From Aequitasia blattaphilus (lineage in GTDB: Bacteria > Bacillota > Clostridia > Lachnospirales > Lachnospiraceae): a DNA stretch of 64,000 nt. Positions 10,247-35,026 of this stretch are shown here, piece by piece (the stretch's first letter is position 1; each line of letters starts with the position of its first letter). The DNA lies in the NCBI RefSeq assembly GCF_024721305.1, contig NZ_JAMXOD010000005.1, positions 62,001-126,000 on the forward strand. Reading direction: 5' to 3'. The translations under genes were made by a program, and so were the position numbers. The notes beneath the pieces are model-generated. The model did not search any database and was not told the origin of the DNA. It worked only from the letters and a program-made list of their open reading frames with translations.

Positions 10247-10275
10247 AAACGGAGGCTGCCGGCCTCCGTTTTTCT
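10247..10275 (+). terminator. Terminator after rubredoxin
   Basis: A 10-bp stem (AAACGGAGGC / GCCTCCGTTT) with a 5-nt loop is followed by T residues. It also closes the convergent GGDEF gene. Confidence 0.9.
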
Positions 10276-15944: not shown

Positions 15945-18050
15945 CTATTCTGGAGTTCCATTTTGTTTCTTTTTGTAAAGCAATAGGATTGCTGCAAGAA
16001 TAATTAGTATGACTGCTCCTATTCCAATTACTAATGGTAAATTGGATACGATGGAAGCTACCTGGCCTTTGTCTTTATCCTTATCTTCATAATCCGCTGA
16101 CGCGCCTAAAGGAACTTCTCCTTCATCTAAATCCTCAACATCTTGTACGTTTTCAGCAAGTGGTACTGCCTCTTCGTCTAATAATGTTGTTTCACCACCA
16201 CTTGGATTCACCACCAAAGTCGTAGGTGGTGTTGCTACCGGTGTTGCAGCGACGGCATCCGTTGTTGTTGTTCCACCATCAATGGCCGTTGTTCCTCCGT
16301 CTACTTCTACTACTTCTCCTGGAAGTACAACCGTATTTTCAACATCATACGTCTCTGTTGTAACAACATCTTCATAATTAATTACTTCTGTAACCTCTGT
16401 ACGGGTAGTATCTAAATTATCCATATCCTTTTCATCTCTGTAGAATACTGAATATGTTCTATGAGGCATATAGAATTTATGGATTCTACTTGGCACCTCA
16501 CCTTTTAACATTACGTAATTCGTTTCATCACCTTTTACATTAAGTTTTTCGGGACTATCTATTGTCACATCTCCCTCATTTGCTTTTACTGTGATGGTAC
16601 GTGTTTCCAGAACTTCAAAACCTCTTACATTAACGTATTGTACTTTTATATCATACTTTGTCACAGCATCAGCACCTGCTTCATGATAAGGTATGTACGT
16701 CACACGATCCGCATTTGGATTAAACTTATGGGTATAAATGCTCTCTGCTGTTTCATCAATTGCATATTGAACACCCTCTGCACTCGTCACTAATGTCTTA
16801 TCATCTGTTCTAAAGGTGTGTTCTCCGTCAACAGGTATTAAGAAGGACTCTGTATACACGATTTTCTGCGTTGCAACATCAATACCTTGTATGACCCATG
16901 TGTACGGAGTGTCTTTGCCCTCTTCCACATACCGTACCTTATAGCTGTCTACGCCACCTGGCTGATGTGTAATTACCTTGTCCGCAACATCATAAAGTCT
17001 AAAGTATGAAACGGTACCATCTGCATAATTTTTAACACTGAGCGTCTCATTCTTAACAGTATATATATACGGCACTCCACTCTTATCGTTATAGGTAAAT
17101 GTATCTACACCTAATACAACATTTTTTTCTTTACCATTCTCGTCTACTACTACTGACTGAACAGTAACTACATAATCCTTATCTACATCTGTCTTTACTA
17201 ATTCATACGTATAATCATATACCGCCTCATAATCGTTATATTTTACTGTATGAACTCCCTTTTGTGTATCATCTACCAGCTTATATGTTCTTCCGGTCGT
17301 AGGATGTGTGATTGTTTCTTCAACCGTATAATCTACAGAACTGTTGTAGGAAACCTTTAAGCTGTCATCCTCCATGATTACGTGACCATTTTCATTCAAG
17401 CAGCGAATACGGATTTTTCGATCTTCTTTGTCAGCCTTTTTATATTTAAAAAACATCTCAAAGGTTTCATAGGAAGCAGTTTTATCAACAGCATCATCTA
17501 GTATCCATTCAATATCATTGCCATTGCCATCCTCGGTAAAAATAATAGTTGGTGGTACAACCTTGAAATTTGAATTACGATCCACATGCCCTCTCTGAAT
17601 CAAACTTGTCGTTTTGTATTTTCCATCAGCACCTGTTTCTTCTGTAATAAATTCCAATTTATTACCATCTTGATCCGTTGCATAAACTTCGTACTCATGG
17701 GTATCCTTAGTTGTAAATTGTTCAAGCACCGTACCTGTTCCATCTTCTGAATCATACACATACATTGTGTATTTCTTCGCATTGTCCTCGACCATAAAGG
17801 CATGTTCTTCACCTGGTTTTAACACCTCTGTAGACAATACAGGCACAGCCTTTTCTTTTAAAACACAACTTACTGGTGTTCCTTGGTTATTCACGACCCT
17901 GAATACTTGGTTATTCTTACCACCCTCATATTGAATATCCCATGTAATCATTTTTCCATCTGCGGCTTTTGCCACATATTTAGTCGGAGCAACGGAAAGA
18001 CCAATTATCATTAAAATTGCTATTAATAGCGATAAAATTCTTCTTTTCAT
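15945..18050 (-). CDS. Membrane-anchored repeat surface protein (MucBP-like modules)
   Basis: This 701-residue protein has a signal peptide (MKRRILSLLIAILMIIGLSV, cleavage near AKA). A run of beta-rich modules covers about residues 35-570. A Thr/Pro-rich stalk covers about 570-660 and contains two acidic VPLA/VPLG patches. A single C-terminal transmembrane helix ends in a KKKQN tail. Some modules resemble MucBP folds (for example THPTTGRTYKLVDDTQKG). No LPxTG-like motif precedes the helix, so it appears membrane-anchored rather than sortase-linked. It starts 90 nt after the giant adhesin gene and is probably expressed with it. Function and ligand are unknown. Confidence 0.75.
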   Translation of the reverse strand: MKRRILSLLIAILMIIGLSVAPTKYVAKAADGKMITWDIQYEGGKNNQVFRVVNNQGTPVSCVLKEKAVPVLSTEVLKPGEEHAFMVEDNAKKYTMYVYDSEDGTGTVLEQFTTKDTHEYEVYATDQDGNKLEFITEETGADGKYKTTSLIQRGHVDRNSNFKVVPPTIIFTEDGNGNDIEWILDDAVDKTASYETFEMFFKYKKADKEDRKIRIRCLNENGHVIMEDDSLKVSYNSSVDYTVEETITHPTTGRTYKLVDDTQKGVHTVKYNDYEAVYDYTYELVKTDVDKDYVVTVQSVVVDENGKEKNVVLGVDTFTYNDKSGVPYIYTVKNETLSVKNYADGTVSYFRLYDVADKVITHQPGGVDSYKVRYVEEGKDTPYTWVIQGIDVATQKIVYTESFLIPVDGEHTFRTDDKTLVTSAEGVQYAIDETAESIYTHKFNPNADRVTYIPYHEAGADAVTKYDIKVQYVNVRGFEVLETRTITVKANEGDVTIDSPEKLNVKGDETNYVMLKGEVPSRIHKFYMPHRTYSVFYRDEKDMDNLDTTRTEVTEVINYEDVVTTETYDVENTVVLPGEVVEVDGGTTAIDGGTTTTDAVAATPVATPPTTLVVNPSGGETTLLDEEAVPLAENVQDVEDLDEGEVPLGASADYEDKDKDKGQVASIVSNLPLVIGIGAVILIILAAILLLYKKKQNGTPE

Positions 18051-18140: not shown

Positions 18141-21100
18141 CTAACTGTTGTCTTTGCTCTTTCTTTTTTTTCTTTGTTTCGTTACTCCTCCTACTCCAAC
18201 AATGATTGCCATTGATGTAGCTAACGTAAGTACCCACAGTAATATGTTGGAATTATCACCGGTTTTAACTACACTTCTTGATGCGGCATTTGTCCTCGTT
18301 GTTACATGTGTTGTCTTTTCACCTTGTTCATATTTTGTAACTTCGTTTGGTATGCTCTTTTTCACTTCATTATATTCCGTTACTGTCTTCTCTTCTGGAA
18401 TAACAGTATTCTTAGGAGCGTAAGCACCTGCATCAATGTCTTCAACCTTATCATCTTCTTCTAGATAGAAGAGCTTACTGTAGAATACATGTGTATCGCT
18501 TGTTCTCTTTGATGCATCTGAATCCACTTTATCTCCACCGTCAGTAAATACATTGTTGTATCGTGTTGCTGTATAACCTTCTGGATAAGTAAATTTGATT
18601 CTATAATTATCTGCATCTAATCCTAAGAACTCATATTTTCCGTCTGCACCTGTCTTCATTGAAGTTACTTCTTCCCAGTTGCCATCATCAAGCATTGAGT
18701 CTGCTGCACTCGAATCTTCTGCTGCTGTCATTGCCATCTTGCTTGCACCCATGCGATATCTTTCTAGTGTTGCAATCACATTCGGTAGCTTAACTTCGCT
18801 TTCTTCACGTTTACCGTTGAAATCTGCGTCAAACCAAGCAACTCCTCTAATCTCAGAAATCGGGTAAAAGATTCCTGCATCCCATGTCATATCTGTCTGT
18901 CCATAATCAAGTGTGAATGCTCTTGTAACGTATCCGCCCTTATTTCCATCAATTACATTTGCAGAATACTCCGTATTCATATCTGAATCTGTCTCAGCTG
19001 TTACTGCTTCTCCAGCTTCATTTGTTTGAGCATTTAGCTTTGTTACTCTTGTACGCTCTTCAAATTCAAATACTACTCTGAACTCTCTTACGTATTCTGA
19101 GCTGCTTTCAACATCGGTAAATTCATAGTGTCCATCTGCATCAGTAGTTGTTCTTGCTTTGGTCTTCCATTCGCCCCACTTGTCAGCGTCTAGCTTCTCT
19201 CTGTATTGAAGCACTACCGGTATGTCTTGAACTCCTGTTTCAGCATCATCTTGGTATCCATCTTTATTTACATCATTCCATACATAGTCACCAACAGTGC
19301 TTATCTTTCTTGCACCCACGCACCATGTAGTCGATGTCATACCCTTTGGAAGATTGATACGTTTGATACGAGCTTCATTATCCTTACTTCCTTGAATAGC
19401 GTCTGAATCAATGTTGGAATCTTTTGCACCAGGCTGAATTGCACCAGCAAATTCTGCTCCATCATCACTATCTTTGTTTGGTGATACAAGCTTATACTCA
19501 TCTGGTATTTCGAAAAGTACTGTATAGTCTTTACTGTCTTTATCCATCTGTAGTTTGTCAAAGAAGTAGTATCCTTTTTCATCTACTGTAGTTTCCGCTA
19601 CTTTTGCACCAATCTTATCACCATCTAATTCGTATAGTGTTACCTTTGTACCTAATAATGGTACGTATCTTGCATCATCTTTTTGAAGATCATCATAATC
19701 CATATCATCAAATGCATATCCGCCTAAAGCACTGTATTCTACAAGTCCTGCATCAATCGATAAATCTTCTGTTACTCCCTTTAATCTCTCTGGAGTAAGA
19801 TCAATCACATGAGATCTCATTATCTGATCACTACTTGTTTTTATCTCTGCATCTGAATCCTTTTCATCATCTTCACCAACATTCGGTGTTGTAAAGATAT
19901 ATTTGCTTACATCCTCTGTATTTGCTACAGGATCTCTATAGAATTCACTAACATCAAATTCAACTACGTATTGTCCTCTGCACAGCTTATTAAATTTGTA
20001 TGCACCATTACCTGTCGTTGTTGTTGAATCAATCGCCTTCTTACTTACCTCGCCTTTTTCATCAACTGTGTAAAGATTTACTCTTACACCATTCAGTCCT
20101 GGCTCTCCAGCATCTTGCAGTCCGTTTGCATTATTGTCAATCCATACGTAATCTCCAATAGCATATGCTTCTGTATAACCTGCATCTATATCTTTTCTTG
20201 TTTCTCCAACCACCTTTTTGTCTACGTCTTCGTAGTATAGTTGTATTTCAGGTGAAACTCCTCCGAAAGTTATGTCTGAATCGTCTGTCTTCTGATGATT
20301 ATTTGCATAAGCATCTGCAGCCTCACCATTTTTATTACCGATCTGTCTGTGTGTAGCGGTCAAACTTTCATCCACTTTACTCACTTCAATGTGATAGGTA
20401 ATATAGCGGTTTCCAATGTAATCTTCTGGATTCGTACTGTAGAACTTATCGCTTGATGTTACCTTAAGCTTACTTACTTCCAGATTTTCAAACAAATATC
20501 TACCATCTGCACCTGTAATGTATGGCATAGAGTTTTGGTTCAGTCCATTGGTTACCTTTGTAACTGTTTTTATAGTTTCTTTGCCGTTTGGAGATTTGTA
20601 GTACTCAGTTTTATATAGGTCAACTTGAGCATTTTCTATTTTCTTATCTATGCCCTCCTCATTAAGACCATTGCCATCTACATCTTCCCATACAACTCCT
20701 GTAATTGCACCATTACCTAAGTCAATCATAGCGGTTACTGGATCCGGTTCACTTCTATTATCTGCACCAATTTCCTTGTCTGCATCGCCTTCAACTTTTC
20801 TAAAGGATGCTCCAGCAACTGAGTTGCGTAACTGCTTTCCAAGATAGTCCTCTATCTCACTTGCCTTAATGTCTGGTATTTGAACACCGATATAGACAGC
20901 GTAGGAATCACCTTGATTAAACGTTGCATCTTCATTAAATACGATATCAAATCCAACTGCACTTGCATCTCCAAGTGAACTTAGGTCATTTGTGTAATCC
21001 GCAAATCCGTTTGTCGTCCAAGAATCTTCCGTCTTCATCAGCATTGTTGTTTTTGGTTTGGCAGCTGCATCGTAACCATATACTTTTTGGCTTGCGACCT

Positions 21101-24100
21101 TTACTCCCTTTGTTGTGAACTCAGGAAGAATTACATCAACAATTTCAACCTTTTTATTGCCAATGTTGGTTCCTCTTTCTGCGTCAGTTAGAACCATTGT
21201 ATCACCCTTCACTGGTAATGTATCCAGTAAGCGTACATTTGTCATCTTCGTATTCGAGTTATTGTATGCAACTAATTTGTAGTAAATAGTGTCTCCAGGA
21301 CTTACTGTTAAATTATAGTTCTGTCCCTTATCTAACTCTTCCTGTGATTTCCCGATGTATTTTGCATACTTAACATTACTACTATTCTTAAGTCCTGCTG
21401 CTACTGCTCTGTTTAAGTGCTCAACTGCTCCTGTATTAATTGCTGAATGAATCATATCATTTGCAAGCAAGTCACGTCCTTCAGATGATGTAAAACTTGT
21501 TCCGTGCGGATTTCTTCCACTTGGAACTAAAGTATGATTGCTTCCCAGATATCCTACCAGTATTAAAGAATCATTCACTGCCTTCTCATCATTAGAAATT
21601 TTTCCTGTGAAAGTGATTTCCATGTAGTCTCCTGGATTCATTTTAACTGTATCATTAAACTGAAGAATATATTGCTTTGTACTACTTCCTGTCTTTTCTT
21701 GGTACGTTAGGTTTTCGATATTATAAATCGCTTTAATATCTTCTCCCTTGTACTGACTTTGTTCGGTAACTGTATAAACACTATTTTCGCTCGGTTCGCT
21801 GAGTATATTTCCGTCTTTATCACGAATTACCACCTTTATATTGCTGCTGTTCGAGTCTTTCATTAGTACAGTATCTAAAGGCATTCTGAACGCTACAACA
21901 GGTTGGTCTAACGTGGTTGGGCTATCCTTGTCCACCTTTACATCAATCTTGTAATTAATCGAATCGCCTGCCGTGAATTCTTTATCTGCACTAACTATAC
22001 TGGTGTAAATTTCGGCTAATGCACGCTTACTATCCGGCTCTTTAAACTCAATATATGGTTGACCAGAAGTAGCCGCTTTAACGATACCCGCTTTTCCATC
22101 AACTTTGTCTTTTAGATAAACAGGTCCAGCTTCACTTACTGCATTATAGATCATTTCACGATAGTTAACCTTTGCTGTATTTTCAATGCGAAGAATTGGA
22201 TTTTTACTACTTAATTCATCCTTGCTCCATTTTGAACGATTCATGAAGGTAACATTCATTGTGTATCCATCTGTCTTAAAGCCTTCTTTTGTATTGCCAT
22301 ACACAATCTTGATTGCCCGCGCATTGTCACCGATGGTTACTGTTGACACATCTTCTAAAGATACATTTGTCGCTTTTGCAATCCAGTCAAACTCAGCTCC
22401 TGTCTTGGTTTTTGCGTAGTATACAGTTGCTGTTGCAGCAGATCCGTCTTGATTTTCCGCTTTTGCTAATGTTACGGAATTAATCACAAAGTCCTTAATC
22501 TTTCCATCTGAATCTTCTGTGAACTCAACTTTATTACCACCCTTTATCTTCTGCTCATCATAGAATGTAATTCCATCATCAATTACCGTGAACTCTTTAA
22601 GCTCGTAATCATTGTCTCCTATTGCATAATCATTAATTACGAAATCTACTGTCAGGTCATCACCTTTATCATTCAGTAGGTTATCTTGATCTGTCAGTGA
22701 TATTTGACCATCTTCAACTACATACTTGTTGATTGCTGGTTTTGAATCATAACCACCATACCTTGTGTTCTTCACGGTAGTTGTATTGATGTTTTTATCT
22801 TTGATGGTTTTCTCATCTTGGCAAGGTTTTAATTCCACAACAAGATTCTTGCCTAATGCATCCTGAATGAATCCTTCGTGTAATTTGTATCCTGCTTTTG
22901 TTTCTGTTTCTTTGATAACGTAAGACCCTTCATCCAAAAGTTCTGAGAAAATTCCATCTTTGCTCTCGCTATAGTTGTCTTTATCGATTACAACCTTTCC
23001 TGATGCTTTTGCCGCTGGCTTACCATCAACAATCTTATAAATCTCAAATACAATTTGTTCGTCTCCAGCTAGTGGAATAATCGCATCATTAGCATCTGTC
23101 TTAATAATTCTTAGCTTACCTTTTATCGATGGATTGTAAACCTCTTGTGTTCTGTCCAAGTATGCTGTTATATCCTCTGAAGTCGTCAACTCGCTTAGAA
23201 GAACTACTTTATCATCCTTCATTCCTACACTTAGGTCGATACCAGCTTCTGCTTCCTGATTCATCTTATACTTGCTATCCTCAGGTAAACTTGTTTCTGT
23301 CAACTTATATGCACCATGAGATAGAAGTTCGTACTTAATCATTCCATCATTATCAGTTTTTCCGTCACCCTTTGTATCGGTAATAGAATCTTGTCCCTTT
23401 TTAAAGGTGAATCCAACATTTGGAAGTTCTACTTTGTTTAGCTTTTCTCCGTCGTGGTCATAATAACCATATTTTGTTACGGTTAAAGAGCCTAGTGGAT
23501 CATTGTAGTATACCTTTGAGATGTTCGTTCCATCTTCAATAGCATCTTTTGTAACGGTAAATGTCATTGCTTCTTCAGATTCTTTAGTTGCTTCGAAAAG
23601 AACTGTATCCCCTGATGCAGCTTTACCATATATGGTTAAATCTCCCTTTTTAGCTTTGATGTCAGCTAAAACATCTTCAAGTCCTGCCTTTTCAGCATCG
23701 GTCATATCGTTGCTGAGTTTTACCAACTTGTAATCTCCTTCATATAGGAGGAAATCAGAATTGAATCCGCTTGCACCAACCTGGAACCATCCACTTGACA
23801 CTTTACTTCCTAAGTCCTTAAAGTTCTTATCGTTATATGGTACATAGTTACCATTAGCATCTTTCTTTAGGATTGCATAACAGGAGCTTGTAAGATTTGT
23901 AAGTGTTTCTCCTGCTGCATCTCTTGCTGCATTTCCATCCTTTGTAATAACGGATAATCTTACGGTTCCACTCTTGTTTTCAACTGATGCTGTACTTTCT
24001 TCACCGTCTCCAACAATCTTACCATCTACTACCTTTACTTTGGTATAATACGTCGTTACTGTCTTATCATTTTCTGCTTGGAAATAGAAATATGGTGCGT

Positions 24101-27100
24101 TGCTTGGGTTAAAGTTTTTACTATATTCTGCTGGCACGGCTGTTTCTTTAACTGCATACCATTTTCCACCTTTTAATGCTTTATCATCAAAAGCATTAAA
24201 CTTAACAACGCCATCTTGACCAGTTTTGTTTGAAACAGATTTCGTTGTAATTACTTCGCCATCATCTCCAACTTCGTATAGAGTAAAAGTAACATCTTGT
24301 AATCCGCTTTCATCACCTTCTAAATCCCCTACCTTCTTAAGTTGAATTGTTGGAATAACAACGTTTTCTATTTCTTTCTCAATTGCAACAATCTTTCCAC
24401 TTTCTTGAATCGCTTCGGCAGTAACCTTAACCTCAAATTCTCGGTCTTGCATTACGTATCCTTTTGGTGCTTCAATTTCTTTAATATAGAAAGTACGCTC
24501 TGTATTATCACTACTCTCGAGGTTCAACAATACATCAAATGTAAGCTCACCATTTTTAGTAACTCCTTCTGCAATAGCTTTTCTACCATTCTCTGTAGCA
24601 GGTTCATCATAAAGCTCAAATTTTGCGCCGTCTAATAATATCTGGTCTACATTATCCTTCTTGCTGCTCTTCTTAATCACCTTAATTTGGAAGTTTTTCC
24701 AGTTTTTCATTGGATTCGAAGTTGAATAATCCTTTACCTCACCTTTTTCAACAACAAATGGACCAAAAACTTCTCCAGCAGAATATTCATTGTCTATTCC
24801 AGGAGCCTTTGTCTCTTTAAGGTAGTAATTTCCTTCTGGTAATAAACCGGATACAACAATTCCTCCGTTTTTAGAAGTATAGGTAATTGCTTTATTATCT
24901 ACCTTATACTCTTTAAACGTATCGTTATCCATTGTACCAAGAGTAAATGTTGCTCCATCCAAAACCCTATCCTCTGTATAAGCATCGATCTTTAAGGCTT
25001 TGAATCTTCCGTAAGTTGAAACATTATCAAATGTAAGTGTATTCTCCGTAGTCTGACCATATTCTAACGTCTTATTTTGTACAACGGTATTCGCTTCTGG
25101 ATTTACGAATCCAAGCTTCTTACTTTCTGCACCCACACTATACTCAGATACGTAATAAGTTCCCTTTTCTAACTTAATTGATATTTTTCCTGTACTATTT
25201 ACTTGAATTCCATCGTCAACTACTGCTCCTCTACTGCTGACAAACTCTACCTTTGAATAGTCTATTTCGTTTGTATAACCTGCATCTGTATAGATTTTAA
25301 ATACGACATCCTTTAATGGATGATTCGTAATCAAATTCCCGTTTTCCCCAATATACGTACCATATTTCTGAATATTTAATACTGCTTTTTCTGAGTTGGT
25401 ATAAGTAATTGGTGATGCTTTTGCATCTGACACAGTGTCAAAGTTTTGATATTTACCTTGAGCATCAATACCAACAATCTGTCCATTTTCAAGAGTAAAT
25501 ACTCTTTCCAAAACATTTGTTGTTCCATTTCCCTCAAAGTAGTAGCCAGCTGGAACCGTTTCAACGAGCTTGTAAATGTAATCTGTTGATAATTCACCGC
25601 TTAGGATTGTCTCGTTTACACCTACTGAATAAGTCTTATATTCGCTTCCCCATTTACTATCATCTGGTTTAGCCGTTCCTTCTGGTTTTGCCTGACGGTA
25701 TAATTTGAAGCTAAACTTCTTTGTTGTACTGATGCCATTTACTGCTTTCTTCAGTGCAAATTCACCCATCTTAGGAGGATTTACATAAGTAACTTCATCT
25801 CCTTCTTGAGGATAAACTGTGATGGTACCTTCCTTAGGTTCACCTACATTTACAACTGCCCAGTTCTTGTCTTCTGTTGTTGTATCACCCACACGTACAT
25901 CACCAGAACTTACATCAACCAATTCATTTCCGTTTCTTCCCTCACTCTTCGAATCATACTCACCTGCTTCTGCTTCACGTACGATATATTGTGTGTTTTT
26001 CTCCAACAGCACTGAAGAGTAGACACCTTCATCTTCTGTATATCCGGATGCAACAAGAGTAAATTTGTCTGAAGTTAAATCTGCATTTGTAATTCTATCA
26101 GCAAGTTTTGCTACTGCGTCTGTATCTAATACCTTGTAAACGTAGTATTTAACACCATCAACTGGCACTTCCTTGCTTATGTCCCCACCATCTTCTGCAA
26201 CACCTGGCAGGTTCGTTATCTTTTTCACCTGGAGTCTGACTTCGTTTTCGCCTTCTCCGCCGCCTGTTCCACCTTTCGCTTGATTAACTACTTGAACATC
26301 ATTTCTTCCTTCTGCAATCGTTATAGGTCCTGTCCATTCGTTAATAATCTCATAGTTGTCAGGAGCTTTGATTTCCTTCAGGTAATAAATCTCTCCAACC
26401 TTTAATGGCAAAGTATATCCGATACCACACGTACCATTATTCACTAACTTCCCATCTTTATCTCTGCTATAAGAGGTTTCAATTATACTTCCATCTCCCG
26501 TTGCTGAAGGGGATGCACTTGTGTCCTTCTTCAGATAAATCGTCTCTCCATCAGCATCTGTTATCGTTGTATCGTATCCATCGGATTCCTTAACCTTTTT
26601 ATACACTTCAAATTGAGCAGCCTTACTGGTAATAAGGTTAAATTGAGAATCTACTTTTTCTACATATATAATTCCTTTTTCAGGTTCATTAACAACTTGT
26701 TTTTCTGTGGTTTTTCCCGATTCAATCGTAATTAGAATTGGATCCTCAAGAACCTTAAAGTCATCATGTCCCTTGGTCTCTACTAGGTAATAGTTTCCTG
26801 GTTTGATATTGTCTAAAGAATCTTTTCCATCTTCGCCTGTTATAAACGTATCAACTAACACCAAGGTATCATCTGAATCCCGATACCTTGTCTTGAACTC
26901 AGCTGCTGATAACTCACCTGCTTCATAAAGACTAAATTCTACATCCTTCAAATCGAAATCAACGAACTGATCTGCAAGTCCCTTATATCGGCCCACCTTA
27001 TGAACAATCAGCTTTCCTCGTTTATTGTTTTTAATGCTATTGTCACCAACATAATTCGATAATGTTTTCCCAATATTGCTATCGTCAATTACAAATTCAT

Positions 27101-30100
27101 CATAAGTAACTGTTTCTTTTCCATTCGCATCAAATGTAGATGTACCTCTTGAGTCACCATTTACGTGATCCTTTGGTACCGTCTCAACAAATCGATATCT
27201 ACCCTTTTCTAAAAGTGCATTGAATTCAATAGTACCATTCCCATTTGTTGTTCCTTCTTCAACTGCTTCAAATTTATCTGTTTCTGTGTTGTACTTTTCC
27301 AGAACAAATTTTACACCAACTAATTTTGTATTACTTGGCATACTTACTTTTCTAAGCTTTACCTTACTCTTTATTGCCTTATTATACGCACTAATTTCAA
27401 TCTTTTTACCACTTGTAGCTACGAATGGATAGTATCCATCTTTAGGAGCGATTTCTGTCTCTCCACCTTCGCTCTTTAGCTTTATTGACTCTAATTCATA
27501 TAATTTAGCCAACTCAGGGGTTAACGTTTCTTTAATGTAGTAAGTCTTGTCTGGATCAAGATTGCCAAAGGTAATCTTACCATTACTTGTATTTCCAGTT
27601 AAACTTTTACTGTTAATGTCCTTAGCAAGCTTATACTCACCATCCTCTTTAACATAAAGTGCAAATGTTACAGCTTTATTTGTCAATAGAGCATATTCGG
27701 CTTCATCAAAATTGTGATATTTGCTAATCTCCACTGAAGATACCGGTTTATTATAGACCTTCAACACATTAGTATCACCATCAAACTCCCAGTTTCCATC
27801 AGGATCGTTTTTATCTGTACCGATCTCAAAGGTAATCTCTTCTTTATATCCTACGTATCCAGTAGGCGCTTTTGTTTCTTTTACTGTGTAACTTTCACCA
27901 TTGACTACATTTTCTCTAACAAACGTTCCCTTACTTGTCTTTTTTAAGGAATCACTTGCTGTTCCTTTTTTCAGTGTAAAAGTCGCTGTATCAATCAATG
28001 TGTCGGTTCCCATTTTATACTTTAAAACCGTTAAGTTGTGAAGCTTCTTATTATAGAAGGTAATCTCTCTTGTTGTATCTACCGTTAGATTCTCCACCTT
28101 TATGGTATCACTTGCTAGTTCATAGCCTTGTGGTGGTGTCATCTCTCTTACAACATAGTCTTTACCTGCTTCTAATAAGCCTGTTTCAACTACACCATTT
28201 TCATCTGTAACCAACAAACTCGCATTGAGAGGTTTGCTAAACTGTGTATCTGTTGAAAGATATACATTATATCCTGCTCCCCCTAAAGGCGTTGTTTTGT
28301 CTGCATCATCTTTCTTAATAATCTTGATTTTAGCAGCATTACTTTCATTTTTAACCGATACTTCTATCTCACTATCTTGATTGTTTACTGTGAATGATTT
28401 AAATCCATCTATTGTTTTAAATAGACCTTTTGCATCCCCAACAGTTTCTTTATAGTAGTATGTTCCTTCTTCAAGATAAACAATATCACTAATCGCCCTG
28501 CCGCTTACATCTTCTTTACTAATAACAGCAGAATCAATTTTCGTGAAATTATCTTCGTCTTTAAGGTCTGGATTTGCCTTATTCGCCTTATAGATTTCAA
28601 AGGTAACACCATTGAAATGTGTCAACCCATTTACAGCTTCTTTGAAGTGTTCACCACTCTTTACAAAGCGAACGCGCTGCAATGTTGTATTTTTCATTTC
28701 AAAATTATTTGTTTTTCCGTTTTCAACAACAACCTTCTTTAAGCCATTTCCTTCGATTTTGTAACCAACCGGCGCTTGTTCTTCAAGAATAACGTAAGTT
28801 CCTTCTTTAATCGCTCCACTTGGTTTATACTTCTTTGCTGTAGCGTCGAAGGTTAAATCTATGGTTTTCCATCCATTTTTTGTTGCCAAAGCTTTAAATT
28901 CCTCAACAGAAATTTTTCCAAGCTCAGCGTCCGTCAATTCCTCTGTCTGTGCAGATGTCAAAATGCCATATAGCTTAAATACACCCTTTGTACCTGAAGT
29001 AGATTGAATAACTTGACCCTTATTGTCTTTCTTCACGAACTCAACATATCCCTTTTTCGATACGTTGGTGTATACATTTCCACTCCAGCCACCTGCGGTA
29101 CCACTTGGTCTGTTTATTTTTCCGCCTTTAACTACGTAATCCTCAAGAATCAATTTTGCTTTGTCGTAATCAATCGAACCTTTTTTTGTTCCAGCATCAA
29201 TCTTTTCATAGTCTGCTAGCTTTCCAGTTGGATTTAAGCTCACTTCATATATATCATATGTACCTGGAACCACATCCCAGAAAATAACATTACCATTTTC
29301 ATCTGATGTTGCAACTGCTTCATTGTCTTCATTTTTTATTGCAAAGACTACACCTTTCAACGCTACAGCTTCTCCACCGCTTGCCCCGATGCCCTTCTTT
29401 ACAAATTCAACACCTGATGTATTTTCTACTGTATTAATAACGTCTAAACCTTTTTCATCCTCTGAAACAGTTACAGAATATCCACCATCCTTCACAAGTA
29501 CTACAGGATCTCCTGGAGCAGGAACTTTAAATTGAATTTTCTCACTCGGTGGCTGCTTCAAAGATGAATTGTCTGCAATAATTTCTTCTAATTGATATGT
29601 GTTACCAACAATAAGTCCACTTATCGTTATGCTTCCGTCAGCACCCACCTCTAAATCACCATAAGGCTGTCCATCTGCTTTTCTGGCTGCTATACCATTT
29701 TCGTTTGTAAGCTTGAACTTTACAGCACCCGTTCGATATTTGTCTTTGTTCACCGTATTCAAAGGAAGCTTAGCATCCTCTCCAAACTGGATGAACTTAT
29801 TTATCTCCACATCATTCCTTTGATATTTGTCCTTATTTCCTCCAAGAACAACTGCTGCTGCGGAACTATTGCCGCCTGCAACATCTCCTACTAATGTATA
29901 GGAAAGTGTAGCATTATTATTCACCGTATGATATACCGGATCTTCTGAGCCATCCACTACATAAGCATCAGCTTTGTATTCCACTGTGTACTTATATACA
30001 GTGTTCTTCATTTCGCCTGCTTTTATATAGTTATCATCTGTTGCATAGGTTTCAAATGTAAAAAACTTAATTCCTGTAATGATATTATTTGCATCTTTTA

Positions 30101-31211
30101 CAATTTCATACTCACTAGGATCTAATGCTCTGAAGCCTGCACCTGAACTGATTTGGATATTCTTAATGTTAATTACCTCTCCATCAGTTTTATAATCTGT
30201 TATCTGATCTTCTATCACATAACTTGTAATGCTTCTTCTGCCCGGAGCATTATCTGTTTCTCCAAAATTACCCTTAACTGCTAATTCGTATTGAGCTGTA
30301 AAACTGTCTGTGCCAAGTTGTCCATTTGCTTCTTTTACTAATTCGTTTTTGTCATCAACAATATTTTTGTCAATCGTCCACGCATCATTCGCACTTAGTG
30401 TTACCGTCGGATACAACTCTGGTTCGTAGTGATGTTCAGTACCAATAAGTTCGTAATGCAAACTTGGTGTCACATGATATGGATTATACAAATCACCATC
30501 TACAACTGTTCCACTTGGTGTAATGAAATTGTCTGTATCAAATATAACTCTTATACTTGCTGCATATCCTGTGTTTTGTGCTTTCAGATAGATACGAAGT
30601 GTATTACTGTTAATAAACTCTTCCCACTCTATTCCTTCACCTGTTGCATAGGCTGGTACATCCACTGTTCCTATATTACGTGGTCTTACAGTTCCAAAAT
30701 CAATATCAATGTATGGATTGTCAACTACAACGGATCCACCTGTGGAAACGTAATTATATTGCATTTCGTAAGTAAAGCTTTTACCGGTTTCAGTTTCAAT
30801 ACTATCTTGACCTTCTCCGTATGCAACGCCTTCTCGCATTTCAATAACTTTTGCTGCGAATGCACTGGCACCACCATCTACACTTTCTGGTTCCTCCGGA
30901 TCATCCTCTCCTTCTAGTCCCATCATAAATGTTGAAGTCTCTGGTTCCGCTGGCTCCGTTAGTTCTGTTGGCTCAGTAGGTTCCGTTGACTCTGGCTCTG
31001 ATATTACTTCGGGTTCTGTACCTCCTCCCTCTGTTAATTCATCACCTGTCTCATTATTTCCTGTAATCTCCGGATTTACAACTTCTGGATTGTTTCCGGA
31101 TTCTTCCACGATTTCCGTTTCCTCAGCCATTACCTGAAACAGATAATTGTTCGAGCTGGAGAAAAGAACCGCTGCGAGGAATAACGCAAGTAATCTTTTT
31201 CCCTTCTTCAT
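18141..31211 (-). CDS. Giant SpaA/SdrD-B-repeat cell-wall adhesin (4356 residues)
   Basis: This uninterrupted 13-kb gene encodes a wall-anchored protein. A signal peptide (cut near VMA, residue 29) is followed by a Pro/Glu/Thr-rich segment. An adhesin-like domain covers about residues 120-465. About 19 SpaA/Cna-B-type modules of ~120 residues cover about 466-2815. In these a Lys near each module start and a late Glu in YxxKETxAPxGY-like motifs suggest self-formed isopeptide bonds. Larger adhesin/DUF11-like domains span about 2816-3495. Five SdrD-B modules with the GDYVWxDxNxNGxQD calcium motif start near 3498, 3682, 3824, 3972 and 4118. The end has SVVKTGDNSN, a transmembrane helix and a basic tail, which is a TGD-type sortase signal. 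No sortase gene is in the window. A BTAD regulator gene lies divergently upstream. Confidence 0.92.
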   Translation of the reverse strand: MKKGKRLLALFLAAVLFSSSNNYLFQVMAEETEIVEESGNNPEVVNPEITGNNETGDELTEGGGTEPEVISEPESTEPTEPTELTEPAEPETSTFMMGLEGEDDPEEPESVDGGASAFAAKVIEMREGVAYGEGQDSIETETGKSFTYEMQYNYVSTGGSVVVDNPYIDIDFGTVRPRNIGTVDVPAYATGEGIEWEEFINSNTLRIYLKAQNTGYAASIRVIFDTDNFITPSGTVVDGDLYNPYHVTPSLHYELIGTEHHYEPELYPTVTLSANDAWTIDKNIVDDKNELVKEANGQLGTDSFTAQYELAVKGNFGETDNAPGRRSITSYVIEDQITDYKTDGEVINIKNIQISSGAGFRALDPSEYEIVKDANNIITGIKFFTFETYATDDNYIKAGEMKNTVYKYTVEYKADAYVVDGSEDPVYHTVNNNATLSYTLVGDVAGGNSSAAAVVLGGNKDKYQRNDVEINKFIQFGEDAKLPLNTVNKDKYRTGAVKFKLTNENGIAARKADGQPYGDLEVGADGSITISGLIVGNTYQLEEIIADNSSLKQPPSEKIQFKVPAPGDPVVLVKDGGYSVTVSEDEKGLDVINTVENTSGVEFVKKGIGASGGEAVALKGVVFAIKNEDNEAVATSDENGNVIFWDVVPGTYDIYEVSLNPTGKLADYEKIDAGTKKGSIDYDKAKLILEDYVVKGGKINRPSGTAGGWSGNVYTNVSKKGYVEFVKKDNKGQVIQSTSGTKGVFKLYGILTSAQTEELTDAELGKISVEEFKALATKNGWKTIDLTFDATAKKYKPSGAIKEGTYVILEEQAPVGYKIEGNGLKKVVVENGKTNNFEMKNTTLQRVRFVKSGEHFKEAVNGLTHFNGVTFEIYKANKANPDLKDEDNFTKIDSAVISKEDVSGRAISDIVYLEEGTYYYKETVGDAKGLFKTIDGFKSFTVNNQDSEIEVSVKNESNAAKIKIIKKDDADKTTPLGGAGYNVYLSTDTQFSKPLNASLLVTDENGVVETGLLEAGKDYVVREMTPPQGYELASDTIKVENLTVDTTREITFYNKKLHNLTVLKYKMGTDTLIDTATFTLKKGTASDSLKKTSKGTFVRENVVNGESYTVKETKAPTGYVGYKEEITFEIGTDKNDPDGNWEFDGDTNVLKVYNKPVSSVEISKYHNFDEAEYALLTNKAVTFALYVKEDGEYKLAKDINSKSLTGNTSNGKITFGNLDPDKTYYIKETLTPELAKLYELESIKLKSEGGETEIAPKDGYYPFVATSGKKIEISAYNKAIKSKVKLRKVSMPSNTKLVGVKFVLEKYNTETDKFEAVEEGTTNGNGTIEFNALLEKGRYRFVETVPKDHVNGDSRGTSTFDANGKETVTYDEFVIDDSNIGKTLSNYVGDNSIKNNKRGKLIVHKVGRYKGLADQFVDFDLKDVEFSLYEAGELSAAEFKTRYRDSDDTLVLVDTFITGEDGKDSLDNIKPGNYYLVETKGHDDFKVLEDPILITIESGKTTEKQVVNEPEKGIIYVEKVDSQFNLITSKAAQFEVYKKVKESDGYDTTITDADGETIYLKKDTSASPSATGDGSIIETSYSRDKDGKLVNNGTCGIGYTLPLKVGEIYYLKEIKAPDNYEIINEWTGPITIAEGRNDVQVVNQAKGGTGGGEGENEVRLQVKKITNLPGVAEDGGDISKEVPVDGVKYYVYKVLDTDAVAKLADRITNADLTSDKFTLVASGYTEDEGVYSSVLLEKNTQYIVREAEAGEYDSKSEGRNGNELVDVSSGDVRVGDTTTEDKNWAVVNVGEPKEGTITVYPQEGDEVTYVNPPKMGEFALKKAVNGISTTKKFSFKLYRQAKPEGTAKPDDSKWGSEYKTYSVGVNETILSGELSTDYIYKLVETVPAGYYFEGNGTTNVLERVFTLENGQIVGIDAQGKYQNFDTVSDAKASPITYTNSEKAVLNIQKYGTYIGENGNLITNHPLKDVVFKIYTDAGYTNEIDYSKVEFVSSRGAVVDDGIQVNSTGKISIKLEKGTYYVSEYSVGAESKKLGFVNPEANTVVQNKTLEYGQTTENTLTFDNVSTYGRFKALKIDAYTEDRVLDGATFTLGTMDNDTFKEYKVDNKAITYTSKNGGIVVSGLLPEGNYYLKETKAPGIDNEYSAGEVFGPFVVEKGEVKDYSTSNPMKNWKNFQIKVIKKSSKKDNVDQILLDGAKFELYDEPATENGRKAIAEGVTKNGELTFDVLLNLESSDNTERTFYIKEIEAPKGYVMQDREFEVKVTAEAIQESGKIVAIEKEIENVVIPTIQLKKVGDLEGDESGLQDVTFTLYEVGDDGEVITTKSVSNKTGQDGVVKFNAFDDKALKGGKWYAVKETAVPAEYSKNFNPSNAPYFYFQAENDKTVTTYYTKVKVVDGKIVGDGEESTASVENKSGTVRLSVITKDGNAARDAAGETLTNLTSSCYAILKKDANGNYVPYNDKNFKDLGSKVSSGWFQVGASGFNSDFLLYEGDYKLVKLSNDMTDAEKAGLEDVLADIKAKKGDLTIYGKAASGDTVLFEATKESEEAMTFTVTKDAIEDGTNISKVYYNDPLGSLTVTKYGYYDHDGEKLNKVELPNVGFTFKKGQDSITDTKGDGKTDNDGMIKYELLSHGAYKLTETSLPEDSKYKMNQEAEAGIDLSVGMKDDKVVLLSELTTSEDITAYLDRTQEVYNPSIKGKLRIIKTDANDAIIPLAGDEQIVFEIYKIVDGKPAAKASGKVVIDKDNYSESKDGIFSELLDEGSYVIKETETKAGYKLHEGFIQDALGKNLVVELKPCQDEKTIKDKNINTTTVKNTRYGGYDSKPAINKYVVEDGQISLTDQDNLLNDKGDDLTVDFVINDYAIGDNDYELKEFTVIDDGITFYDEQKIKGGNKVEFTEDSDGKIKDFVINSVTLAKAENQDGSAATATVYYAKTKTGAEFDWIAKATNVSLEDVSTVTIGDNARAIKIVYGNTKEGFKTDGYTMNVTFMNRSKWSKDELSSKNPILRIENTAKVNYREMIYNAVSEAGPVYLKDKVDGKAGIVKAATSGQPYIEFKEPDSKRALAEIYTSIVSADKEFTAGDSINYKIDVKVDKDSPTTLDQPVVAFRMPLDTVLMKDSNSSNIKVVIRDKDGNILSEPSENSVYTVTEQSQYKGEDIKAIYNIENLTYQEKTGSSTKQYILQFNDTVKMNPGDYMEITFTGKISNDEKAVNDSLILVGYLGSNHTLVPSGRNPHGTSFTSSEGRDLLANDMIHSAINTGAVEHLNRAVAAGLKNSSNVKYAKYIGKSQEELDKGQNYNLTVSPGDTIYYKLVAYNNSNTKMTNVRLLDTLPVKGDTMVLTDAERGTNIGNKKVEIVDVILPEFTTKGVKVASQKVYGYDAAAKPKTTMLMKTEDSWTTNGFADYTNDLSSLGDASAVGFDIVFNEDATFNQGDSYAVYIGVQIPDIKASEIEDYLGKQLRNSVAGASFRKVEGDADKEIGADNRSEPDPVTAMIDLGNGAITGVVWEDVDGNGLNEEGIDKKIENAQVDLYKTEYYKSPNGKETIKTVTKVTNGLNQNSMPYITGADGRYLFENLEVSKLKVTSSDKFYSTNPEDYIGNRYITYHIEVSKVDESLTATHRQIGNKNGEAADAYANNHQKTDDSDITFGGVSPEIQLYYEDVDKKVVGETRKDIDAGYTEAYAIGDYVWIDNNANGLQDAGEPGLNGVRVNLYTVDEKGEVSKKAIDSTTTTGNGAYKFNKLCRGQYVVEFDVSEFYRDPVANTEDVSKYIFTTPNVGEDDEKDSDAEIKTSSDQIMRSHVIDLTPERLKGVTEDLSIDAGLVEYSALGGYAFDDMDYDDLQKDDARYVPLLGTKVTLYELDGDKIGAKVAETTVDEKGYYFFDKLQMDKDSKDYTVLFEIPDEYKLVSPNKDSDDGAEFAGAIQPGAKDSNIDSDAIQGSKDNEARIKRINLPKGMTSTTWCVGARKISTVGDYVWNDVNKDGYQDDAETGVQDIPVVLQYREKLDADKWGEWKTKARTTTDADGHYEFTDVESSSEYVREFRVVFEFEERTRVTKLNAQTNEAGEAVTAETDSDMNTEYSANVIDGNKGGYVTRAFTLDYGQTDMTWDAGIFYPISEIRGVAWFDADFNGKREESEVKLPNVIATLERYRMGASKMAMTAAEDSSAADSMLDDGNWEEVTSMKTGADGKYEFLGLDADNYRIKFTYPEGYTATRYNNVFTDGGDKVDSDASKRTSDTHVFYSKLFYLEEDDKVEDIDAGAYAPKNTVIPEEKTVTEYNEVKKSIPNEVTKYEQGEKTTHVTTRTNAASRSVVKTGDNSNILLWVLTLATSMAIIVGVGGVTKQRKKRKSKDNS

Positions 31212-31520
31212 GAATCTACCTCCTTATAATAGTCTCTATAAAATGAATTGTTAGGTCGGCTACTTTGCTAAATAATAAACGCACTGCTACCTATATCTAT
31301 ATTACATAATATAATTATATGACCGAACCGTTACATAGTCGTTACACGCCATTAAACTTTTGATGATTCGCGACTTTTTTTTGCCTTTCTACTGCTTTTT
31401 TTCTTTTTTCTTTATAAAACTACATATATTTTGTAAGTGAAGATATTTGATTAAAATGACTGAATGGTATATATTTATGTATATACTTTTATTTTTAGAA
31501 TCATTAGGAGGAATCTAAAT
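31212..31520. promoter_or_regulatory. Divergent control region between giant adhesin and BTAD regulator
   Basis: These 309 bp hold no gene. The side next to the adhesin has a GGAGG site before its ATG, and a -10 element preceded by two heptamer repeats (annotated separately). The side next to the regulator is a long A/T-rich stretch with pyrimidine runs and several possible -10 boxes, ending in an AGGAGGAA site before the ATG at 31521. Confidence 0.7.
31314..31346 (-). promoter_or_regulatory. SARP-type operator/promoter of the giant adhesin gene
   Basis: Read on the minus strand, two copies of TGTAACG (31346-31340 and 31335-31329) have an 11-bp period and lie 9 bp before a perfect TATAAT (31319-31314). 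No good -35 box is needed in this arrangement. Streptomyces SARP regulators bind heptamer direct repeats of 11-bp period about 8 bp before the -10 box, and the divergent gene encodes a SARP/BTAD-type protein. Binding is an inference. Confidence 0.65.
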
Positions 31521-32720
31521 ATGAAAAACAATAGTACTAAATATCTAAAAATCTCTATGTTTGGAGAATTCAGCATAAAAAACGAACACCACTCACTGAC
31601 AGCTTCAAAACAAAGTGGATTAACAAGCTTTTTGTTACTTGGTTATCTGTTTTCCAATAAAGGAAATGATATTACAAGCGATATGTTGATTGATGTCCTT
31701 TGGCCTGAGGGTGAAAGCAACAATCCACAAGGTGCCCTTCGCACACTTCTCCATCGTACAAAGAAGCTGTTACAGCCCTTCTTTCCAGGAGAAGATGTGG
31801 AATTATTGACAAAAAATAATAATATCTACACCTGGAATCCCGATATCCGTCTTTATATAGATATTTTTGAATTTGAAAAAAGTGCTCACAGAGCCTTTCG
31901 TGAGCCGGATCAAACAAAACAATTTGAACTTTTAGAAAAGGCAAACGCGCTCTATAAGGGAGACTTTCTTCCTATGTTTTCTCACCATTCTTGGGTTATG
32001 TTCCGTAATAATTACTATGGCAACCTCTTTATTAAAACGGTAAACCTGATATGCTATCACCTTTCTCAGGAGAAGGAATACGAAAAGACTTTAGAGCTTT
32101 GTAACAAAGCTTTAGACTACTCTCCTTCCACCGATGAAACGCTGCATAAACAGAAGATTTTTACCCTTTTAAATCTCGGTAGAGCACAGACCGCATTAGA
32201 ATATTATTACTCTCTTTTAGCACTGTTTAATAATAGTTATGGTCTTGACATAACCGAGTCTATGGCGGATGTATACGAGGCAATCTTAAGCAGTATGCCC
32301 AACCAATTTCAAACCCTCTCTTCTCTTGATGAAACCCTTCGAAGCAGAAAGGTTGTTTCCGGAAGTTTTTACTGCAATTTTGATATTTTTCAAAATATAT
32401 ATCAGATCAATCTTCGTTCTGCGAGACGTACGAGAAGCCGTTATTATTTAGTACTTTTAACCCTTAATGAGTCTGATGAACGTTCTATCATTACAGAAGA
32501 TTTAAAAGAAGAAATGGATATCCTGCATACAATTATGCAGAAAAAATTAAGAAGCAATGATGTGTATACAAAATCTAGCATTTGCCAATACTCACTCATT
32601 ATCAATTCACCAAACGAGGGAGGCGCCGAGGTAATACGCCATCGTATCGAGGACAGCTATTTGAAAAAAAGAAAGCATCCTAATATCGAGCTACACGTTG
32701 ATTTTAAAGAAATTGTTTAG
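31521..32720 (+). CDS. SARP/BTAD-family transcriptional regulator
   Basis: This 399-residue protein has an N-terminal OmpR-like winged helix (residues ~8-100, with LIDVLWPEGESNNPQGALRT). A bacterial transcriptional activation domain of TPR type follows (~105-250, with DIFEFEKSAHRA and LEKANALYKGDFLP). The C-terminal ~130 residues resemble a degenerate cyclase (GGDEF) fold without GGDEF residues. The ATG at 31521 has a perfect AGGAGGAA site; 19 upstream in-frame codons are not used. It is divergent from the giant adhesin gene and is the obvious candidate activator of that gene. A terminator follows. Confidence 0.85.
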   Translation: MKNNSTKYLKISMFGEFSIKNEHHSLTASKQSGLTSFLLLGYLFSNKGNDITSDMLIDVLWPEGESNNPQGALRTLLHRTKKLLQPFFPGEDVELLTKNNNIYTWNPDIRLYIDIFEFEKSAHRAFREPDQTKQFELLEKANALYKGDFLPMFSHHSWVMFRNNYYGNLFIKTVNLICYHLSQEKEYEKTLELCNKALDYSPSTDETLHKQKIFTLLNLGRAQTALEYYYSLLALFNNSYGLDITESMADVYEAILSSMPNQFQTLSSLDETLRSRKVVSGSFYCNFDIFQNIYQINLRSARRTRSRYYLVLLTLNESDERSIITEDLKEEMDILHTIMQKKLRSNDVYTKSSICQYSLIINSPNEGGAEVIRHRIEDSYLKKRKHPNIELHVDFKEIV

Positions 32721-32806: not shown

Positions 32807-35026
32807 TTAGCCTCGCATATTTACAATATCTAACAACTCTTTTTCATTAATTACTTTGTAAAGATAGAAGCCTTGAAGTTTATCTTCGCTTCCTTCCATA
32901 CAGAATTCGTACTGCTCTTTTGTCTCAATTCCATTCACACAGATTTCCTTATCCATTGAATGACATAGCTTAATAATTAATTCCAAGAACTCTCTGGATA
33001 TCGGATTGGATAAATCTTGAATCAAATTCCTGGATGTAGTAATTTGATCAATTGGAAGCTCCTTCAATTGGAGGAAGGATGCGTTTCCACCTCCAAAACC
33101 ATCCATCGTTACTTTTATTCCGATTTCTCTTAAGCCTTTACATACTAAATGCATTCTGTGAGGTATACGCAGCGCAATACTTTCGGATATTGAAACAATT
33201 ACATTGGCCGGATTCACCTTTGTTTCTTTCAGAATTTCTTCAAATCGAGTCAAAACATCTCGTTGTTGTATTTGTTTCTCTGAGAAATTCAAGCACATTT
33301 TGAACTCAGGATATCCTGACTCGTTAATCCTTTTAAGCAAATTCAGTGCCGTTCTCGTAACGTGGTCTCCTATCGGAACAATAAGTCCCAGGTATTCTGC
33401 TAAAGCCAAAAATTCTTTTGGCAAAAGTACCTTCTCCTGATCTCGATCTCGAATTCGAAGCAATGCTTCTACTCCCTCAATCTTTTGATTTTTATGATTT
33501 ACTATAGGCTGGTAGTGAATCTCAATACCTGAGAATCCATTCTTCATTGCTCGTCTTAAGACCTCTTCGGTATCGGATCTCATCTTTGTAGAATCAGACA
33601 TAGCCTCTTCATAAATCTTATACTGATTTTTTCCTCTTCTCTTCGCCTCATACATAGCTACATCAGCGCGCTTTAAAATTGTTTTACTACTTACGTTTTC
33701 CCCTGGATAAGTTGCAACTCCTACGCTCAGTGTACAATAAAATTCTTTATTCATAGCCGTCCAGGGTTCCGTTGCTCTTTTGTGTATTTTCTTAAGAATT
33801 TCCTCTATATCAACCTCTACATCATAGTCTAAAATGATAACAAACTCGTCTCCACCATAACGGAAAACCTCATGGGGAGATTCGAATATTTCCTGCAGCC
33901 AGCTCGCAAAGGTTTGAAGCATTGCATCACCATACTCATGCCCATAGCAATCGTTGATCACCTTGAAATCATCCATATCAAGGAAAAGTAAATATCCTGT
34001 TTTATTCTCCCTGATTGCCCCCTCCATAGCCAAGCTCAAACGCTCATCACAGTAATATCTGTTTGACAATTTTGTAAGATAATCTGTAAATGCCATGCGT
34101 TCTACTGCTTTTCTACTCTCATTCAATTCTTCGTCTGTATGCTGTCTTGCGATTACGGTTGAAATAAGATTGCTGATATTGTTTAAAAATCTTACGGTAT
34201 CCTCATCCCATGTACGTTCAATCACACAGTCATCAAAACACACAAAACCATAGTGTTCCCCATTTAAATAAACCGCAAATATTGCAGATGCAATTAACCC
34301 CTCTGCTTCAAACTCTTCTTTACAGTTTTCCGGTATATTTCCAAAATCTACCAGTAAAGATCCTGTTGTTTGCAATGCAACATAGATTTCCGGCATACCT
34401 GTTTCATAAGTCACATTGTAATCCAAGTCCATAACCGAGCTGATGCCACTATTCGTCCATTCATAGACCACCTTACAGGTTATATGCTCCTCATCATCTT
34501 TAAACAGCAGTGCTCTGCTTGTATCCAAATACTCTCCCGTTCGATCCAGAATAATCTGAAGGGCATGATCCAAGTCAGAATTATGAAGAGTGAGCAATAT
34601 ATCATTTAAAACAACTTGTTGTCTATAATGATTATTTAAAAGCTTTTCATCAAGGGTATCATACAGTCCACTTGTAATAGCGGTGTCGTAAGTGACTACA
34701 TTTCCTTTTTCATCCCGATTCACTGTGTTGTATTCAACAACTGATATGCATTCTCCATTTTTCTTAATGAGACGATAGTAAAGTTTAAACTCATTGACAT
34801 TTGCAGTCTCATAATCACTAATCGTTTTACTCAGCACCACTTTATCATCTGGATGTACCAGATCAAACCACTTTACTTTACCTGTCAAAAAATCTTCTCT
34901 ATCATATCCGTAAATCGACACGTTATTTGTAACATATAATGTCTTCCAGTTATCTTTTTCATGACTTAGGCGAAATACAACTGCCGGAATATGTTCCAGC
35001 ATTTCTTTTACGTCTACTTTGCTCAT
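32807..35026 (-). CDS. PAS-GAF-GGDEF-EAL protein with degenerate EAL domain
   Basis: This 739-residue soluble protein has a PAS domain (~1-125), a GAF domain (~140-300), a GGDEF domain (~310-470) and an EAL domain (~490-739). The cyclase signature RYGGDEF (near residue 391) is intact. In the EAL domain the EAL motif (near 520), LNFSEKQ and SES are kept. The DDFG motif reads DGFG (near 641), the catalytic Lys of the KID motif is Thr, its Asp is Ser, and the general-base Glu of the EGVE motif is Asn (near 697). It probably makes c-di-GMP but does not hydrolyse it. Input signals are unknown. Confidence 0.88.
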   Translation of the reverse strand: MSKVDVKEMLEHIPAVVFRLSHEKDNWKTLYVTNNVSIYGYDREDFLTGKVKWFDLVHPDDKVVLSKTISDYETANVNEFKLYYRLIKKNGECISVVEYNTVNRDEKGNVVTYDTAITSGLYDTLDEKLLNNHYRQQVVLNDILLTLHNSDLDHALQIILDRTGEYLDTSRALLFKDDEEHITCKVVYEWTNSGISSVMDLDYNVTYETGMPEIYVALQTTGSLLVDFGNIPENCKEEFEAEGLIASAIFAVYLNGEHYGFVCFDDCVIERTWDEDTVRFLNNISNLISTVIARQHTDEELNESRKAVERMAFTDYLTKLSNRYYCDERLSLAMEGAIRENKTGYLLFLDMDDFKVINDCYGHEYGDAMLQTFASWLQEIFESPHEVFRYGGDEFVIILDYDVEVDIEEILKKIHKRATEPWTAMNKEFYCTLSVGVATYPGENVSSKTILKRADVAMYEAKRRGKNQYKIYEEAMSDSTKMRSDTEEVLRRAMKNGFSGIEIHYQPIVNHKNQKIEGVEALLRIRDRDQEKVLLPKEFLALAEYLGLIVPIGDHVTRTALNLLKRINESGYPEFKMCLNFSEKQIQQRDVLTRFEEILKETKVNPANVIVSISESIALRIPHRMHLVCKGLREIGIKVTMDGFGGGNASFLQLKELPIDQITTSRNLIQDLSNPISREFLELIIKLCHSMDKEICVNGIETKEQYEFCMEGSEDKLQGFYLYKVINEKELLDIVNMRG

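Follow-up and report, generated by a model that had tools for sequence, protein, structure and literature searches.

The closest described relatives of the system reported here are the Streptomyces antibiotic regulatory proteins (SARPs), among which AfsR acts through sigma adaptation at a box whose centre lies at -29.5 and uses T88 and R92 for base-specific contacts (PMC10936776; papers identified by PMC number are cited for individual passages). A further reference point is the GGDEF family, in which the I-site for cyclic di-GMP (c-di-GMP) consists of an RxxD motif (R359 and D362 in PleD), R390 and R313 of the neighbour (PMC7288161). Here we describe, in a 64,000-nucleotide stretch of the Aequitasia blattaphilus genome (Lachnospiraceae; contig NZ_JAMXOD010000005.1, positions 62,001 to 126,000; hereafter the window), two direct repeats between the gene of a giant adhesin and the divergent gene of a SARP-type regulator, P0001. 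We put at roughly 0.8 the probability that these repeats are the operator from which P0001 activates the adhesin. Evidence that they form an operator is strong, and activation is inferred from layout and homology. The fusion of the SARP domain to a degenerate GGDEF domain that keeps the c-di-GMP I-site, read from alignment and model, is the new element beyond the original prediction.

The repeats and their conservation

Read directly on the minus strand, positions 31346-31314 give TGTAACG-ACTA-TGTAACG-GTTCGGTCA-TATAAT, so that 4 bp (ACTA) separate the two heptamers and the 9 bp of GTTCGGTCA lie between the second repeat (31335-31329) and a perfect -10 box. The original prediction had placed two TGTAACG heptamers of exact 11-bp period 9 bp before this TATAAT, facing the giant adhesin gene, and its coordinates, the arrangement and the orientation all proved correct. 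The ATG of the adhesin, a 4,356-aa product, lies at 31211.

31340..31346, minus strand: upstream heptamer TGTAACG, direct repeat 1, read in the window and conserved in relatives
31329..31335, minus strand: downstream heptamer TGTAACG, direct repeat 2, 11 bp after repeat 1, marked out by spacing specificity
31314..31319, minus strand: -10 box TATAAT, 9 bp past repeat 2, by direct reading
31219..31225, minus strand: ribosome binding site AAGGAGG of the adhesin gene, by direct reading
18141..31211, minus strand: giant adhesin, 4356 aa, with SpaA and SdrD_B domains; ATG at 31211

If transcription is assumed to start 7 nt past the -10 box, the adhesin leader is about 95 nt long and the operator is centred at about -28.5. 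No -35 hexamer was found at this promoter, the repeats sitting in its place, and a sigma-70 scan of 30800-32000 omitted the promoter despite the perfect -10. In silico, the site has the direct repeats overlapping the -35 place that are typical of SARPs, whose repeats have a period of 11 bp (or 22 bp), here 11 bp. For SARPs the 3' repeat is given as 8 bp from the -10 box; the gap here is 9 bp, a figure that shifts with the point at which the repeat is considered to stop. Single TGTAACG heptamers occur 8 times in the window, against an average of 3.65 in shuffles (at least 8 in 3 of 100). The exact pair with 11-bp period is found once in the 3.2-Mb genome, where allowing 2 mismatches gives 13 matches, fewer than the 16 of the reversed pattern. 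In its own genome it is therefore the perfect copy alone that stands out; the looser core TGTRAC-N5-TGTRAC occurs there twice. A riboswitch in the adhesin leader was considered and rejected, since Rfam at gathering scores returned nothing in the window.

P0001 was searched for in 398 genomes of the family, inferred to be Lachnospiraceae, 98 of which hold a match at 1e-20; the closest named relative of the window is Ohessyouella (same genus, Lachnospiraceae). The collection scan used seven closer rows (alignment A2), alignment A1 being too divergent there. The repeats are present in all 14 back-to-back pairs of a close regulator and an adhesin that were seen, 12 of them strictly, whereas G002 (second heptamer CGTAACG) and G311 (TGTGATT) are one base off the strict pattern. 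Conservation of both heptamers and of their period in such pairs was the check that the original prediction had proposed, and it came out in its favour. Some of these adhesins are visible only as their N-terminal part, and L192, with 142 bp of upstream sequence, and six loci duplicating genomes already covered (L181, L182, L185, L187, L188, L191) were left out of the reading.

Pairs with repeats: G000, G001, G002, G017, G341, G374, G096, G311; L184, L186, L189, L190, L193, L201

G069 keeps the heptamers with no -10 after them, and its 13.5 kb of upstream sequence showed nothing like an adhesin frame. The regulators of G251 and of the Faecalicatena-type loci have no divergent adhesin and no site beside them. 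Upstream of the Faecalicatena-type regulators (L027-L030, L195-L198, L203), on the opposite strand and with no operator, lies a gene that by eye is ileS-like, and whose long leader we take to resemble a T-box. In Candidatus Dorea intestinavium (L016, L019, L182; G002 C6, 6332-7518) the gene of the close regulator is broken up into two frames that overlap, through either an assembly error or a natural break.

Across the 398 genomes, the pattern TGTRAC-N5-TGTRAC-N10-TAnnnT gave 94 sites in 47 genomes, against 8 sites for the reversed control, and the three -10 positions not fixed by the pattern are T in 76, A in 72 and A in 54 of the 94. With free gaps (TGTGAC-N2..9-TGTGAC-N5..15-TATAnT) there were 57 matches (reversed control, 13), of which 35 fell at N5/N10, one of 88 possible spacings; the remainder comprised 7 at N6/N6 (6 identical, in G298), 4 at N5/N11 and 11 singles. 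Within 36 genomes preselected for sites, the single spacing accounted for 35 of 37 free-gap matches. Site and regulator also occur together: among genomes with a strong regulator match (E <= 1e-40 by profile A1) 33 have a site and 66 do not, compared with 14 and 285 of the other genomes (odds ratio 10.2, p 2.3e-12), and 18 of the 94 sites lie less than 200 bp from a regulator frame.

Two kinds of site with other spacings were also seen. Six identical copies of TGTGACAATCCCTGTGACGATAGCTATATT on contigs C4, C11, C19, C23 and C25 of G298 make up a repeated promoter-like element that may be mobile. TGTGAC pairs of 11-bp period with one extra base before the -10 occur in G012 (2 sites), G396 and G157, possibly as a spacing variant of the operator.

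The regulator and its proposed recognition of the site

The divergent gene at 31521-32720 had been taken to encode a BTAD/OmpR-type protein (BTAD, bacterial transcriptional activator domain), and a PF03704 match together with a structural model resembling AfsR and EmbR confirmed this. Its start at 31521 is marked by GGAGGAATCTAAATATG; the mechanical list of open reading frames starts the same frame at 31464.

31521..32720, plus strand: SARP-GGDEF regulator P0001, 399 aa, divergent from the adhesin (Pfam, profile search, AlphaFold2 model)
31521..31859, plus strand: N-terminal winged helix, OmpR-like DNA-binding domain (model and alignment)
31743-31745, plus strand: codon of T75, within the recognition helix, residues 69-87 (model and alignment)
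31860..32288, plus strand: BTAD, residues 114-256 (PF03704, E 1.1e-11)
32370..32717, plus strand: degenerate GGDEF domain (residues 284-399) that has lost its active-site motif and keeps the I-site residues
32550-32552, 32559-32561 and 32643-32645, plus strand: codons of I-site residues R344, D347 and R375 (alignment)

The BTAD, which follows the DNA-binding domain and scores 45.7 bits against a cut-off of 22.1, is the only domain that Pfam detects in P0001. In the AlphaFold2 model (predicted local distance difference test, pLDDT, 85.6; predicted template modelling score, pTM, 0.61) residues ~7-261 match AfsR and EmbR, and residues ~284-399 match GGDEF domains including that of PleD. A profile search agreed, with AfsR at 4e-14, EmbR at 2.6e-9 and a diguanylate cyclase at 9e-6; ranked above these are designed TPR proteins, whose similarity is to the TPR-like part of the BTAD. 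The C-terminal part alone found diguanylate cyclases at 1.6e-5, and OmpR-type response-regulator DNA-binding domains match the N-terminal profile. The scanned neighbours are the adhesin and housekeeping genes, with no antibiotic cluster among them, and the host belongs to the Lachnospiraceae; P0001 is therefore filed by its domain architecture and not as a SARP in the narrow, name-giving sense.

In the alignment SICQY replaces the GGDEF active-site motif of P0001, and the string GG[DE][EF] occurs anywhere in frame in only 1 of 58 regulator frames. An alignment of 30 rows shows R344, D347 and R375 without exception; a larger set of 58 retains R344 and D347 throughout and R375 in 57, a count in which the window's protein appears twice and for which 4 of 62 rows were too short. 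Their offsets of +3 and +31 equal those of R359, D362 and R390 in PleD, the comparison covering the equivalents of these three residues only. P0001 thus joins, by alignment and model, a SARP domain to a degenerate GGDEF domain that retains the c-di-GMP I-site, and control of the regulator by c-di-GMP is predicted from these residues.

Recognition residue and heptamer base 4 vary together. For regulators that have a site no more than 15 kb away, Thr75 accompanies TGTAAC in 8 of 8 and Asn75 accompanies TGTGAC in 17 of 17, while the lone Ser75 goes with a mixed site; the other four rows are one Ile75 and one Val75, both with TGTGAC, and two fragments. G001 and G102 each carry both types of regulator, with sites to match. 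When positions 8-399 were ranked by normalised mutual information over 27 rows (two fragment rows dropped, one mixed-site row left out), residue 75 came first and residue 78 second. By alignment, residue 75 corresponds to T88 and residue 79 to R92 of AfsR.

Genes downstream of the proposed operators and around the regulator

For each of the 94 sites the target was taken to be the likeliest first downstream open reading frame, sorted into classes of our own: 33 adhesin-like surface proteins, 21 TasA/camelysin-like proteins with a SipW-type leader, 12 members of an unnamed family (here WQG), one SipW-like signal peptidase, the regulator itself once, and 26 unclassified or none. Thus 68 of the 94 precede a gene of one of these classes. 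A TATAxT -10 box is present at 54 of these 68 sites compared with 6 of the 26 unclassified ones, which fits the latter being mostly chance. Pfam found SpaA in 15, VWA in 9 and SdrD_B in 6 of 32 surface-protein stretches (for giants, the last 1,200 aa only); among TasA-type and peptidase targets it found Peptidase_M73 (camelysin) in 7 of 22, PilJ_C in 1 and Peptidase_S26 in 1, and we presume the TasA/SipW label for those lacking Pfam support from their leader sequence. Since the same regulator family and operator accompany adhesins, TasA/camelysin-like proteins and a SipW-like peptidase, this looks like a switch for both surface and biofilm matrix.

The WQG family (WQG...F.S motifs; alignment A5, with L061:5861-6703 and 11 further loci) lies downstream of 12 of the 94 operators and is sometimes divergent from the regulator. 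None of its 12 members has a Pfam match, and there was no PDB match at E 0.001; its model is middling (pLDDT 69.8), with tandem beta-beta-beta-alpha units. G039 (L148-L151), 96% complete, has five TGTGACC operators and no strong SARP-GGDEF match; three of them precede surface proteins, two with a VKTGD and one with a VRTGD tail.

In the adhesin of the window, Pfam places SpaA domains within the first 2,000 aa and SdrD_B domains within the last 1,200 aa. By eye it has a leader peptide and a VKTGD...membrane-anchor-like tail, the VKTGD presumably being a sortase signal. The adjoining 701-aa protein (15945-18050, minus strand) has no Pfam match.

32807..35026, minus strand: PAS-GAF-GGDEF-EAL protein (c-di-GMP turnover), convergent neighbour of the regulator, with RYGGDEF and EALLR motifs

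Relatives of this protein lie near some regulators (window, G205, G070, G135), but its gene does not adjoin the regulator in G001, the nearest named relative. Genes for c-di-GMP turnover are common. A conserved c-di-GMP gene beside the regulator was rejected on these observations, which include no enrichment test. Another protein whose GGDEF motif looks intact (RYGGEEF) is encoded about 20 kb from the site (10275-11447, minus strand).

Proposed mechanism, alternatives and known systems

The original prediction had the divergent protein activating the adhesin through the repeats. Conservation, spacing, the link to the regulator and the match of helix to base all support this, with activation itself suggested by homology and layout. 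One regulator molecule would bind each heptamer, the two lying next to each other where a -35 element would otherwise be, and they would dock sigma region 4 and RNA polymerase at a promoter whose one good element is its -10; such sigma adaptation, as for AfsR, would turn the giant adhesin on. Less certainly, the degenerate GGDEF domain may sense c-di-GMP via its I-site and so set the activity of the SARP part. On a wider view, for which our confidence falls just short of even, SARP-GGDEF proteins would be one-component, c-di-GMP-controlled activators of adhesins and TasA/camelysin-like fibres in Lachnospiraceae, acting by sigma adaptation from TGTRAC repeats with a residue-75 code.

Several observations weigh against this account. 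The gap to the -10 box is 9 bp and not the 8 bp of SARPs, and the -10 of G001 is weak (TAAGGT). The strict site is absent from 66 of 99 strong-regulator genomes, while G039 has 5 sites and a best regulator match of only 1.6e-25; Faecalicatena-type members have ileS upstream and lack the site there; and 26 of the 94 sites fall in no target class. As for recognition, columns 37 and 38 split the site types as fully as column 75 by raw mutual information. On the 35-row tree base and residue change 3 times each, and 2 supported independent pairs (3 in total) agree, so that a tree-based sign test, with 2-3 pairs, has too few to reach significance. When the heptamer T is set on AfsR T-38, T88 touches the pair beside the covarying one, and with this offset of one pair the registers of AfsR and P0001 would not be identical.

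A chance repeat near a -10-like, AT-rich stretch is scarcely credible and was rejected: single heptamers are not rare in the window, but 94 sites stand against 8 reversed ones, they concentrate at one spacing of 88, and 14 of 14 pairs are conserved. We also think it improbable that a different winged-helix protein, for example a PhoB/OmpR-type response regulator, reads the site and that the SARP neighbour is incidental. Such regulators too bind direct repeats of about 11 bp, the N-terminal profile of P0001 also picks up their DNA-binding domains, and the five sites of G039 lack a strong SARP-GGDEF match; yet this reader would leave unaccounted for the co-occurrence (p 2.3e-12), the correspondence of residue 75 to base 4 and the 18 of 94 sites within 200 bp of a regulator frame.

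Because the repeats overlap the -35 place, the regulator might instead bind there as a repressor, blocking the -35 region and forming an off-switch. This we consider very unlikely, as the scan showed no -35 hexamer to block, the -10 lies at a fixed short distance from the repeats, the domain is of activator type and AfsR activates from nearly the same position (PMC10936776). A quite conceivable variant, although we lean away from it, accepts operator and activation but makes the GGDEF-like domain only a dimerisation or structural module, or a binder of another nucleotide. Some degenerate GGDEF domains do bind GTP or act otherwise, RxxD and the later Arg are conserved in GGDEF members generally (PMC7288161), and c-di-GMP genes were not shown to be enriched next to regulators. 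Nonetheless, all 58 rows retain R344 and D347, and 57 retain R375, while GG[DE][EF] survives in 1 of 58 frames, and PelD of B. cereus, a degenerate GGDEF protein with an intact I-site, is a c-di-GMP receptor (PMC7112168). Activation from the repeats by P0001 remains our preferred reading.

To our knowledge, the control of adhesin and matrix-fibre display in gut Clostridia is poorly known. Our analysis offers a regulator family, a 33-bp operator that can be searched for in any genome, a list of targets and a predicted signal, c-di-GMP. If true, it would extend SARP logic beyond actinomycete antibiotic control, add a new kind of c-di-GMP-linked transcription factor and provide a route by which c-di-GMP acts on attachment through transcription in gut Clostridia. 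Among the matches listed from open-access PMC titles and abstracts, none describes a SARP-GGDEF switch; PMC11747023 shares terms with the system and proved irrelevant.

Like AfsR and the Streptomyces SARPs, P0001 joins an OmpR-like domain to a BTAD, the base-contacting T88 and R92 of AfsR align with its T75 and R79, and the afs box, like the adhesin operator, consists of two direct repeats of 11-bp period near the -10 and overlapping the -35 place. Unlike them, the P0001 system has a Bacillota host, surface-protein targets, the heptamer TGTRACN and a 9-bp gap, and the C-terminus is GGDEF-like where AfsR has NOD-TPR. EmbR of Mycobacterium tuberculosis has an FHA domain at its C-terminus (PMC10936776), P0001 a degenerate GGDEF domain. 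SARP-LAL proteins such as PimR likewise combine a SARP domain with a C-terminal half related to guanylate cyclases, and their heptamers have 4-bp gaps as in the adhesin operator, but they are large SARPs with a LAL-type ATP/GTP-binding half that control antibiotic clusters (PMC10972967). PelD-type receptors share the degenerate GGDEF domain with an RxxD I-site and a link to the biofilm matrix (PMC7112168); PelD acts post-translationally on polysaccharide production, whereas the GGDEF domain of P0001 is fused to a transcription activator.
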